Assembly: GCA_028276365.1 (NCBI GenBank) | Contig: JAPYWL010000057.1 | Location: 1 to 6,822, forward strand | Reading direction: 5' to 3' | Source of the DNA: Deltaproteobacteria bacterium | GTDB lineage: Bacteria > DRYD01 | DNA length: 6,822 nt | Part shown: positions 2,744-6,822 of the stretch, one piece after another | Layout of the letters: every line of letters begins with the position of its first letter | Position numbering within the stretch: the first letter of the stretch is position 1 | The notes under the pieces: generated by a model | Database searches by the model: none | Told to the model about the DNA's origin: nothing | Seen by the model: only the letters and a program-made list of their open reading frames with translations | Translations under genes and position numbers: made by a program

Positions 2744-3259
2744 TTGCTAAAAGAAAATCCAGAATTAAAAACTTCATTCTATCTTATATTATTTTCCATT
2801 ATTTTCTTATTTTTGATATTTTTAACTTCAAAATATGAGAATTTAACCTATATAAATATCCAAAAACCTAACACAAATTACTTTATTGCTTATAATGTAG
2901 AGTTTATAAAATGGTTAAATTATGATAAAATAAATTATTACATTAAAGCTCAAAACATATATACCCCTACTTTTGAATCCTACTTTGCTTTAGAAAATGC
3001 TAAATTTGTACTTTATCAAAAAAATAAAGATATCAAGGGGTATATATCTAATGCTTTAATTTACAAAAATTTAGCTTTTGGAAAAGGTAATAATATTGTA
3101 ATTTCTTATAATTATTCCACCTTATATAGTCCCTACTTTAAAGTAAGATATAAAAATATCTTTCTATATAATTGCTACATAGATAATCAAATAAAAAATA
3201 AAAATCACAATGTTTTAATAAGATCTAATATCCCTTTGATAATAATTTATATTAGATAA
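2744..3259 (+). CDS. Single-pass membrane protein, probable LptC-like
   Basis: The 171-residue protein has one N-terminal membrane segment (about 10-28, TSFYLILFSIIFLFLIFL), followed by about 140 residues expected outside the cytoplasm and rich in beta-prone Tyr, Ile and Asn. The order of motifs resembles LptC, which anchors the LPS transport bridge: a VEFIKWLNYDKINYYIKAQNI stretch (52-72), then YFALENAKFVLYQKN (80-94), then ISNALIYKN (101-109), then NNIVISYNYSTLYSPYFKVRY (116-136). This follows the family's repeated pattern of 'goes with A, element in chain, line in value'. The match is by pattern only. TTG at 2744 is the only plausible start: an in-frame TAA lies two codons upstream, and there is no internal Met. 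AGG directly abuts the TTG, which is too close for a normal Shine-Dalgarno. lptA and lptB are not adjacent. If it is not LptC, it is a membrane-anchored protein of unknown function. Confidence 0.5.
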   Translation: MLKENPELKTSFYLILFSIIFLFLIFLTSKYENLTYINIQKPNTNYFIAYNVEFIKWLNYDKINYYIKAQNIYTPTFESYFALENAKFVLYQKNKDIKGYISNALIYKNLAFGKGNNIVISYNYSTLYSPYFKVRYKNIFLYNCYIDNQIKNKNHNVLIRSNIPLIIIYIR

Positions 3260-3481: not shown

Positions 3482-3485
3482 ATGG
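3462..3485 (+). repeat. Duplicated start context TATCTAATGG before the helicase
   Basis: The 10-mer TATCTAATGG occurs at 3462-3471 and again at 3476-3485. The first copy's ATG (3468) opens a four-codon frame, ATG-GTA-TAT-ATC-TAA, whose stop overlaps the helicase ATG as TAATG. Either a small duplication created a decoy start, or the mini-frame couples translation to the helicase. The sequence alone cannot tell these apart. Confidence 0.55.
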
Positions 3486-5383
3486 GTAATAATTTATTTG
3501 TTGATAATTTATTTGTAAGGTATTCAAGATTAAATGAGGATCAATTAAGAGCGGTAAAAGAGATATATGGTCCTGTTTTGGTGATAGCTGGTCCTGGTAG
3601 TGGTAAAACTAATGTTATATCTTATAGAATCCACAATTTAGTTAAAAATCATAAAATTAATCCTGAAAAAATCTTGCTTCTTACTTTTACTAATAAAGCA
3701 GCTCAAGAAATGACTAAAAGAATAAAATTTTTATTTAATATAGATTTACCTTATGCTGGAACTTTCCATAGTATTATTATTAAGCTTGTTAAAGAATATC
3801 TTCAAAGGAAAATCCCTATTGAATCTACTACTTTTGATTTTGTTAATTATAAATTAAATTTAGTAGATGAAGAAGATAAATTAGAAATCCTAAAAACTAT
3901 TATAAAATTATATAAATTTGATAAAAAATTTAAAATAAATATTTTAGATTTAGCTAATTATATATCTGCTGTAAAAAATAAGAAAGTAAATCTTAGTGGA
4001 TTCTATCAAGAGTTATTTAATATTTATAACGATATATTAAGAAAACAGTATATGATAGATTTTGATGATTTATTAATGTTGGGAATCGAGATTTTTAATA
4101 ATGAAAAAATAAAAAACAACCTTAAAAATAGGTTTAATTTTTTAATGGTAGATGAATTCCAGGATATTAATTATTTACAATTTGAGTTTTTAAGGAGATT
4201 TGAGGTAGATAATATTTTTGTGGTTGGTGATGATGATCAAAACATTTATTCTTTTAGGAATTCTGATTCTAAGTTTATTTTGGAATTTAGCAATTATTAT
4301 AAAAATCCTGTTATTATTAAATTAAGTTATAATTATAGGAGCTATCAAGAGATTTTAAATTTTGCATTAAATACCATTAGATATGTTTCTTATAGGTATC
4401 CTAAGAATTTAATAGCTTTTAAAGGTAGTAATCCTGATTCTGTTTTTTTTAAAACTTTTAAAAATGAATCTCAAGAAGACAATTTTATTATTAATAAAAT
4501 CAAGGAAATTTTTAATGAAAATAATAATTTTAAAAAAAGTACAGTTATTTTATGTAGAACCAATGAAATAGTAAAATATATGGAAAGATTACTAATTTCT
4601 AATTCTATACCTGCTAAAGCTATTGGGAGTTATAATTTTTTTAATCGAAAGGAAGTTAAAGATATTATTTCTTTACTTAAATTAGTTATTGATTTAAAGG
4701 ATGATCTATCAATTATTAGAGTTGTTAAAAATTTTTTTAATTTTAAAAAGATTGATGAAATATATACTGATTCCTTAGAAGTAGGTAAAAATTTGGTTGA
4801 TTATATTGAACTAAATTATATGAAACTAAATGATAAAATTATTAATATATGGGGATTTATTCAAGAAAAAATTAATAATATATTTTATTATAATAAAATA
4901 AGTGAGTGGATTAATAATTTTGTCTTTGAAATTAAAGAACATTTTGATTTTGATTATTTTAAGAAAAATAATAAAGATTTTTTTGATTTGTTTCTAAAAT
5001 TTATTGATTCTTTTATAAGTAAAAATATAAGTAAAAAAGATGTTATAGATAAGCAAAAAGAAGAGGATTTAGAAAAAAGTAGAATTAATTTTATAGAAGA
5101 TTTAGTAAATTATGTATCTTTAATAAGGGGTAATGATATAGAAATAGAGGATTTAGGTAATATAAAAAAGGTTATAATAATGACGATACATAGTGCTAAA
5201 GGATTAGAATTTGATCATGTTTTTATTCCAAAGGTAAGGGAAGGAATAATACCTCATTACAAAAGTGAAGATATTGATGAAGAATGTAGATTATTTTATG
5301 TAGCTATTACAAGAGCTAAAGAAAAATTATTTATAACTACTTCTAATCCAGTTTCAAGATTCTTATTAAATTATCTGAAATAA
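3482..5383 (+). CDS. UvrD/PcrA/Rep-type superfamily 1 3'-5' DNA helicase
   Basis: This ATP-driven helicase translocates 3'-5' on single-stranded DNA. Relatives act in nucleotide-excision and mismatch repair, replication restart and removal of RecA filaments. All motifs are present in order: Q motif LNEDQLRAV (17-25), Walker A AGPGSGKT (36-43), motif Ia LLTFTNKAAQEM (66-77), GTFHS (93-97), DEFQD (224-228), motif III VVGDDDQNIYSFR (247-259), motif IV SYNYRS (282-287), motif V MTIHSAKGLEFD (567-578), and motif VI ECRLFYVAITRA (601-612). The 633 residues are shorter than PcrA/UvrD (about 720). The protein ends just after motif VI, so the C-terminal tail that binds RNA polymerase in PcrA is absent, and it is not safe to choose among uvrD, pcrA and rep. 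The ATG at 3482 overlaps the TAA of a four-codon reading frame. No Shine-Dalgarno is seen. The N-terminus carries a small internal repeat (NNLFVDNLFV). It is followed 27 bases later by the pseudokinase-like gene. Confidence 0.95.
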   Translation: MGNNLFVDNLFVRYSRLNEDQLRAVKEIYGPVLVIAGPGSGKTNVISYRIHNLVKNHKINPEKILLLTFTNKAAQEMTKRIKFLFNIDLPYAGTFHSIIIKLVKEYLQRKIPIESTTFDFVNYKLNLVDEEDKLEILKTIIKLYKFDKKFKINILDLANYISAVKNKKVNLSGFYQELFNIYNDILRKQYMIDFDDLLMLGIEIFNNEKIKNNLKNRFNFLMVDEFQDINYLQFEFLRRFEVDNIFVVGDDDQNIYSFRNSDSKFILEFSNYYKNPVIIKLSYNYRSYQEILNFALNTIRYVSYRYPKNLIAFKGSNPDSVFFKTFKNESQEDNFIINKIKEIFNENNNFKKSTVILCRTNEIVKYMERLLISNSIPAKAIGSYNFFNRKEVKDIISLLKLVIDLKDDLSIIRVVKNFFNFKKIDEIYTDSLEVGKNLVDYIELNYMKLNDKIINIWGFIQEKINNIFYYNKISEWINNFVFEIKEHFDFDYFKKNNKDFFDLFLKFIDSFISKNISKKDVIDKQKEEDLEKSRINFIEDLVNYVSLIRGNDIEIEDLGNIKKVIIMTIHSAKGLEFDHVFIPKVREGIIPHYKSEDIDEECRLFYVAITRAKEKLFITTSNPVSRFLLNYLK

Positions 5384-5410: not shown

Positions 5411-6822
5411 ATGATAGAATATTTTAAAGAATATAAAATTATCTCTAAGCTTAATATTCCTGATTTATTTTCTGATTATTATTTAGTTTTTAAAGATTCT
5501 AAGTATTATATATTAAGAATATTTAATCAGGATTTAAAAATTGAAAGTGAAATAATTGAAAATGTTAAAGATATAACTAATGACTTACAAAAGCATTTAT
5601 GTGTTATATATGAATTTGATTTTTATGAGAAAAATTATTATCAAATTTTGGAATATCCTTCTTATGGAACTTTAACTAATTATATTGATAAAAAATTATT
5701 TAGTAATAATAGGATTGATAGGGATATATTGGATGAAATATTAAAGGAATTAGTTGAAGCACTAATTGATTTACATTCTAATGGCATTGCTGTCCTTTTA
5801 TTTAATTCTGATAGTATTTTTATAAGGAATTTATCTAAATTAGATTTGGTATTTGTTAGTTTTAATTTACCACCATTAATTAATGAAGAATTATTTTTTG
5901 ATAAGTTAATTAATAATTACAAATCTTTTTTAGCTCCTGAGAATTTAAATAATATTTTTTCTTTTGAATCAGATTATTACCAATTGGGAAAATTAATTTA
6001 CAAAATCTTTAAGAAAAAGGATTATAATTTTAATGATTATGAATCAATAAAATTTGATATAGATATACCTATAGATTATAAAATATTGCTTTTAGGATTA
6101 TTAAATAGTGAATATAAAAAAAGGTTTTATAATAATGAGTTAGCTTTATTTCTTAATAAAGATATAAATACCTTAATAGATAAATTAGCTTTTATAACAG
6201 ATATTGATTATCCTTATATAAAAAATATCCCATTTGGAAATAATGTTTATAACAATTATAGGGAATTATATTTTAATTTTGTTAAGAGTAAAGAAAATTT
6301 TGAATTAGCTTTAAAGTTATTTTTTAATTACCTTATTGATAAATTGAGTTTAAAGGATTATAAAATTTTTAATGAGATTAACAAGGAGATAAAAACTAAA
6401 GAAGTTGTTTTTTCAGTTTTTATTTCTGTTAAATTAGAACAGTTTTATTTATATAATTTTTTAGTTGATATTAAGCTAATTAAAGAAATTTTAAAAGATC
6501 CTAAGCATCCTTTATACTCTTTTTTAAATAATTATATTAACTACTTATTTAATAATTCTTTTGAAGATTATAAAAATAGTATTTTTTATTTTTATTCAGT
6601 TTTTAGTAGATTATCAGGTATTACACTTAATTATTTAGAGAATTTTTTTTATAATATCCAAAACTTGGTCTTAGATTTAGATTTTGAATTTTATAGTAAC
6701 TATTATCGTATAAAAAATAAAAACGAAATTTTTATTAAGTTTTTAAGTGATTTGGTTAATGATAAATTAATTATTTATAAAGATTTTGATGTTTTCAATA
6801 CTAAAATTGATGTAGAGGTTTT
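5411..6822 (+). CDS. Protein-kinase-fold protein lacking catalytic residues (pseudokinase), 3' end cut by window edge
   Basis: The frame stays open from the ATG at 5411 to the window edge (470 codons and two bases), so the gene is real but incomplete. Residues 1-250 follow the kinase fold: a beta-3-like YYILRIF (32-38), hinge ILEYPSYGTLTNYI (79-92), helix E ending in LHSNGI (121-126), FLAPE (173-177), helix F SDYYQLGKLIYKIF (187-200), and a helix-I LLNSEYKKRF (230-239) whose Arg238 would pair with the APE Glu177. The catalytic positions are gone. The ATP lysine is Arg36, HRD reads VLL (128-130), the catalytic-loop Lys and Asn read Asn132 and Ser135, and DFG reads SFN (150-152). The N-lobe has no glycine-rich loop. 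Kinase activity is therefore very unlikely; a binding or scaffold role is inferred. Residues 260-470 are helical and rich in Phe, Tyr and Asn, perhaps a worn AAA/STAND region. No Shine-Dalgarno precedes the ATG. It follows the helicase by 27 bases and is probably co-transcribed. Codon use matches the neighbours. Confidence 0.8.
   Translation, partial: MIEYFKEYKIISKLNIPDLFSDYYLVFKDSKYYILRIFNQDLKIESEIIENVKDITNDLQKHLCVIYEFDFYEKNYYQILEYPSYGTLTNYIDKKLFSNNRIDRDILDEILKELVEALIDLHSNGIAVLLFNSDSIFIRNLSKLDLVFVSFNLPPLINEELFFDKLINNYKSFLAPENLNNIFSFESDYYQLGKLIYKIFKKKDYNFNDYESIKFDIDIPIDYKILLLGLLNSEYKKRFYNNELALFLNKDINTLIDKLAFITDIDYPYIKNIPFGNNVYNNYRELYFNFVKSKENFELALKLFFNYLIDKLSLKDYKIFNEINKEIKTKEVVFSVFISVKLEQFYLYNFLVDIKLIKEILKDPKHPLYSFLNNYINYLFNNSFEDYKNSIFYFYSVFSRLSGITLNYLENFFYNIQNLVLDLDFEFYSNYYRIKNKNEIFIKFLSDLVNDKLIIYKDFDVFNTKIDVEV

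Follow-up and report, generated by a model that had tools for sequence, protein, structure and literature searches.

The open reading frame that runs into the end of the window (the whole of contig C30, 6,822 bases at 20% G+C, from a 1.59-Mb draft assembly of 124 contigs) raised the question of whether a protein with the outline of a Hanks-type kinase but with replaced catalytic motifs can still act as a kinase, and what it might do for the cell if it cannot. A preliminary description had placed a pseudokinase at positions 5411-6160. The kinase-fold domain was indeed found there, but it is only the N-terminal domain of a gene that continues past position 6820. The relevant features of the window are as follows:

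3482..5383, + strand: gene for a UvrD-type helicase, ending 27 bases upstream of the pseudokinase open reading frame
5411..6820, + strand: pseudokinase open reading frame, 470 aa without a stop codon, cut by the contig end; the N-terminal part of a protein of approximately 1,060 aa
5411..6163, + strand: pseudokinase domain, residues 1-251 (from Pfam, the AlphaFold2 model, Foldseek and VIA-align)
6164..6820, + strand: residues 252-470, a helical region with homology to the part of active paralogs that follows their kinase domain

A full-length ortholog was encoded in the same genus (L019:6714-9905, 1063 aa, with an identical copy in L072) and shared 67% identity with the window protein over the 470 residues compared. 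It comprised the pseudokinase domain (1-251), a helical region to approximately residue 550 that was common to the active paralogs, a single strong hydrophobic span (563-581) and approximately 480 further residues. In the window protein, the helical region was modelled as helices at lower confidence, and paralog matches extended to query residues 420-428, or to 461 with a profile. The 3' end of the window's own gene, comprising its last 290 codons, was situated at the end of contig C59 (G000:C59:4009-4878, - strand); the encoded part was 53% identical to the ortholog with a dN/dS of 0.49, and thus less constrained. It is very likely that the protein is anchored in the membrane with a domain outside. 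No match to this domain of the ortholog was found in Pfam or NCBIfam, or by sequence in the PDB. A low-confidence model from the single sequence (pLDDT 41) was mostly β, with Foldseek matches largely to propeller proteins (YncE, BtuG2 and an NHL domain among them); the C-terminal outside domain is perhaps a β-propeller, which we regard as a reasonable guess from such a model.

The gene order UvrD, pseudokinase, glutamate dehydrogenase, MurC was common to both species, with 3 bases between helicase and pseudokinase in the same-genus genome, and the UvrD genes of two further genomes (G002 and G004) had no kinase gene behind them. Elsewhere in the window, a gene encoding SLBB and helix-hairpin-helix domains (2139-2699) was followed by a 171-aa open reading frame (2744-3259, + strand) whose product had a hydrophobic stretch at its N terminus and gave no match in Pfam.

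Kinase fold and catalytic positions

Residues 1-251 of the window protein have kept a Hanks-type kinase fold. Pfam Pkinase (PF00069) matched residues 55-218 at E 1.9e-6; this profile search, suggested in the preliminary description, returned a match, although its score of 27.9 bits was below the gathering cut-off of 31.7, a value that the ortholog just exceeded (32.1 bits). Using an active paralog as the phmmer query, the window protein was matched at E 5e-18, and the best solved structures by sequence were eukaryotic kinases (MELK, E 1.4e-4). An AlphaFold2 model built from six sequences had a mean pLDDT of 65; most of the kinase core scored 70-89, and the activation loop fell below 50. Its elements followed the canonical two-lobe kinase order: β1 (9-14), β2 (21-28), β3 (31-41), αC (46-58), β4 (66-72) and β5 (75-81), then αD (88-96), αE (104-123), β7 (136-140) and β8 (145-148), and finally αF (185-201), αG (209-213), αH (221-230) and αI (241-248). 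Foldseek comparison of the model with solved structures returned kinases (E 6.5e-9, probability 1.00), and VIA-align returned Z scores of up to 18.4 against solved kinases (rmsd 3.9, 221 aligned residues within 4-251), far over the tool's middling level, with all matches listed being protein kinases; structure prediction, also proposed as a check, therefore bore out the two-lobe fold. With a profile built from 29 kinases of the lineage, the window protein was absent from the matches at E 0.01, which we attribute to domination of that profile by distant families, since Pfam, phmmer and structure all gave matches. The best-scoring NCBIfam model, the MAD6 defence kinase (NF047741), was rejected as an assignment at 25.6 bits against a cut-off of 460; the ortholog scored 29.4 bits on the same model and the active paralog 92.6, above the window protein.

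The alignment of catalytic positions was anchored by active paralogs from the same genome (G000:C70:10519-12867, locus L022:10519-12867) and the same genus (G001:C11, locus L021:3563-5896), which shared 28-30% identity with the pseudokinase across the kinase domain and the following helical region. The paralogs kept FVLK, HRDLKP(T/S)N and DFN in the aligned columns, and had the motifs LHSNGI, LAPE and ESDY in common with the pseudokinase. Their C terminus was a hydrophobic hairpin (690-708 and 733-751 in the G000 copy), in contrast to the one span and outside domain of the pseudokinase. Together with a subfamily alignment of seven sequences, this comparison located the following positions:

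5516..5518, + strand: Arg36 at the β3 Lys (VAIK) position, aligned with FVLK of the paralogs; Arg in the ortholog too
5792..5800, + strand: Val128-Leu129-Leu130 at HRD, by paralog alignment; ILF in the ortholog
5804..5806, + strand: Asn132 at the catalytic-loop Lys, by paralog alignment; also Asn in the ortholog
5813..5815, + strand: Ser135 in place of the catalytic-loop Asn, which is retained in the ortholog (FNSDNIF)
5858..5866, + strand: Ser150-Phe151-Asn152 at DFG; DFN in active paralogs, SFN in the ortholog
5933..5989, + strand: APE (175-177) and helix-F Asp188/Gly193, kept; P176, E177, D188 and G193 invariant in the subfamily alignment
6122..6124, + strand: helix-I Arg238, kept; invariant in the subfamily alignment

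The APE Glu, the helix-F Asp and Gly and the helix-I Arg were thus invariant in all seven sequences, and the β3 Lys, HRD Asp and DFG Asp were all three replaced in both the window protein and the ortholog. The Gly-rich loop of the window protein had no glycine, and was also degenerate in part of the active subfamily. Every residue named in the preliminary description was found in its place (R36, E81-L88 as EYPSYGTL, H122-I126 as HSNGI, V128-L129-L130, N132, S135, S150-F151-N152, A175-P176-E177, D188/G193 and R238), and its central claim, a pseudokinase with the fold kept and the catalytic residues replaced, was confirmed by the paralog-anchored alignment and the fold matches. Two of its details needed narrowing. 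The change of the catalytic-loop Asn to Ser is true of the window protein but not clade-wide, as the ortholog has Asn; and in SFN the change of Asp to Ser is new, but the Asn is no loss, having been inherited, as active paralogs read DFN.

A shifted alignment was considered and rejected: the paralogs read LHSNGI-IHRDLKPTNILIR...DFN where the window protein reads LHSNGI-AVLLFNSDSIFIR...SFN, so that the relatives with intact HRD and DFN align at the same columns and anchor the register. Intact motifs were found in paralogs alone, and the sole ortholog shared the losses. An assembly artefact was likewise rejected, the losses being common to this 67%-identical ortholog from a different assembly. 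The window protein is almost certainly not a conventional kinase, and loss of catalytic chemistry is strongly supported by the residues at these positions.

The same residues bear on whether the protein was repurposed as an enzyme, with another mode of nucleotide binding, another chemistry (SelO-like AMPylation or SidJ-like glutamylation) or weak phosphotransfer. The polar catalytic-loop residues N132 and D134 were kept in both orthologs, the N-S-D-N of the full-length ortholog resembles the N-T-D-N motif of SelO, and Arg at β3 is found in pseudokinases that still bind ATP (PMC12599244); the residue-level evidence is compatible with nucleotide binding. However, a likeness over four residues can be chance, and the window protein has Ser for the DFG Asp, Arg for the β3 Lys, no Gly in the Gly-rich loop and Ser for the loop Asn. 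SelO and SidJ retain the β3 Lys and DFG Asp for their other chemistry (PMC12599244, motif table), where the window protein has Arg36 and Ser150. We consider such an enzyme quite improbable.

Ancestry, distribution and selection

A tree built from 33 kinase domains placed the two pseudokinases inside a nine-row branch (support 100/100), of which the other seven rows all kept the β3 Lys, HxD and D(F/Y)(N/G). As the pseudokinase nests inside a clade with intact motifs, catalytic loss was derived within the subfamily; the pair's own stem was long, at 1.82 changes per column. A further subfamily member with intact motifs was found in a Leptospiraceae MAG (L073). Searching contigs with the window protein alone gave no matches, and a four-sequence alignment was required as the query; a profile search of seven genomes of the phylum found no orthologs beyond this genus. 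The subfamily from which the pseudokinase arose also includes a tandem of two nearly identical kinase genes in G002 (L020:3852-6011 and 6016-8190) with HSD and DYN motifs. In two related active kinases (L073:7932-10964 and L023:3720-6845), the kinase domain was followed by an extended series of KEWK(x)GF-like repeats, on which Pfam Decapeptide gave a match below cut-off in L023. In members of the active subfamily, the profile column of the αC Glu was occupied by Leu despite intact HRD and DFG Asp, which could be a genuine trait or arise from the alignment.

The pseudokinase gene is under purifying selection in the two related species. Over the 470 codons of the fragment, dN/dS was 0.24 with a moderate dS of 0.80. 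The corresponding values were 0.21 for the UvrD gene next to it, 0.17 for the kinase domain of the active paralog and, for glutamate dehydrogenase, 0.12. Between the catalytic loop and DFG, identity was 76%, against a gene mean of 67%, with both conservation and dN/dS resting on one ortholog pair. That selection kept the scaffold, as proposed earlier, agrees with the value of 0.24 for this pair. A decaying gene, that is, a kinase paralog that has lost its function and is on its way out, might be suspected from the missing catalytic residues and the narrow distribution in one genus. However, the frame of the ortholog is open for 1063 aa, gene order is conserved, dN/dS is like that of active neighbours and the catalytic loop-to-DFG stretch is well conserved, so that decay is scarcely credible and is refuted as far as two sequences allow.

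Proposed function and known pseudokinases

The preliminary description suggested a role as signalling scaffold or sensor. We lean towards a non-catalytic membrane signalling or scaffold protein, which may serve as a receptor-like partner for other kinases. Its N terminus would be cytoplasmic and its C-terminal domain outside, sensing a ligand or the state of the envelope; judging by its motifs, the pseudokinase would transfer no phosphate and would work by protein contact. Action by binding an active kinase, through docking and allosteric control, is plausible, if somewhat short of an even chance, and would be the most likely mode given descent from kinases of the same cytoplasmic architecture that are still in the same cell. 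The sequence gives no partner's name, and no active kinase gene lies beside the pseudokinase gene, the neighbours being housekeeping genes; a candidate partner would be a paralog of the C70/C11 type, which has the same cytoplasmic architecture, the pseudokinase then being a receptor with a dead kinase domain. More specifically, and tentatively, the protein could be a HER3-like receptor in which an outside β-propeller senses ligand and the dead kinase domain allosterically switches the active paralog in the same cell via their shared cytoplasmic architecture.

A pure scaffold would instead serve as a structural platform on which an envelope or secretion complex is assembled without a partner kinase, as for EssB/YukC, or would itself be phosphorylated to recruit a binding protein, as in mycobacterial MviN. 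Either case is in keeping with a membrane-anchored protein that has lost every catalytic motif (PMC12599244), and among the genes downstream is that of the peptidoglycan enzyme MurC. Yet no secretion genes adjoin the pseudokinase gene in the regions read, the mixed neighbourhood (helicase, glutamate dehydrogenase, MurC) need not be functional, and ancestry from kinases of the same architecture is accounted for no better by a scaffold than by pairing with a kinase; we regard a pure scaffold as rather unlikely, although it ranks second after control of a partner kinase.

Bacterial Hanks-type pseudokinases have been reviewed as the families ActPs1-3, GLW, CP1, DYD and DLHK, together with EssB/YukC, SidJ and SelO; several of these families lack all three motifs, several have a C-terminal transmembrane region, and pseudokinases make up as much as 67% of some bacterial kinomes (PMC12599244). 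The earlier remark that well-described bacterial pseudokinases are few is therefore fair for experimental studies, which are few, but several families are catalogued. Like the window protein, MviN (ActPs3, Mycobacterium) is a membrane protein with a Hanks-type pseudokinase that has lost all three motifs, but its pseudokinase domain is at residues 710-942, whereas here the domain is N-terminal and followed by one span and an outside domain. EssB/YukC of type VIIb secretion is similarly a membrane-anchored cytoplasmic pseudokinase without the three motifs; in contrast, the neighbourhood read here held no type VII secretion genes, the helical region is long and the outside domain comprises approximately 480 aa. 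GLW shares hydrophobic residues at HRD, but is defined by GLW at that motif and Leu/Trp at the β3 Lys, as opposed to VLL/ILF and Arg here. ActPs2 shares Arg at β3, but its HRD Asp is Asn and its activation loop carries a long insert, as opposed to Leu/Phe and no long insert here. ActPs1 also has an extra C-terminal domain (PQQ), and GLW, ActPs1 and ActPs2 all come from lineages other than that of the window protein. On its motifs, the protein would best be called a lineage-specific bacterial Hanks-type pseudokinase of a kind already known, set apart from GLW and ActPs2 by their motif definitions.

PknD-type receptor kinases consist of a kinase, a transmembrane segment and an extracytoplasmic propeller, and PknD is catalytically active. 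The same plan of an N-terminal kinase fold, one transmembrane helix and a β-rich outside domain was seen in the ortholog, the last part from a model of pLDDT 41. Unlike active PknD, the window protein lacks the catalytic residues, and the propeller here is a guess.

Degenerate kinases of the lineage

Two more families of degenerate kinases were observed. One was present in five genomes (L005, G000:C124:57419-58075, - strand; L060, G001:C2; L048, G004:C150; L087:1577-3565, G002:C5; L046, G006:C119) and had the β3 Lys replaced by Arg and the DFG Asp by Asn (NLA/NIA/NFG), with the HRD Asp, Lys and Asn kept; in its G002 copy the kinase fold was followed by TPR-like repeats. The other, of approximately 325 aa, was present in four genomes (L006, G000:C15:1784-2446, - strand; L063, G001:C8; L064, G002:C7; L065, G003:C66), with a β3 that lacked Lys, xxD(L/I)(N/S)PEN for HRDxKPEN and SFS/SFA for DFG. 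Separately, G001 carried a kinase gene in three diverged copies (L075:8440-8590, L076:8452-8602 and L066; contigs C26, C28 and C9), each split by a change of reading frame at one common site, after the activation loop and before APE; shared decay, a split gene or recoding are candidate readings.

The genome of approximately 1.6 Mb encoded eight Pkinase matches, three of them degenerate kinases; three in so small a genome is a further indication that the kinase fold is frequently retained for roles other than catalysis. If the HER3-like reading is true, then with the two other degenerate families approximately one third of the lineage's Hanks kinome would be non-catalytic. The main interest of the locus is that active and dead paralogs of the same plan coexist in one small genome: with nearly the same cytoplasmic architecture in both, it offers a direct way to ask how a dead kinase might regulate a live one.
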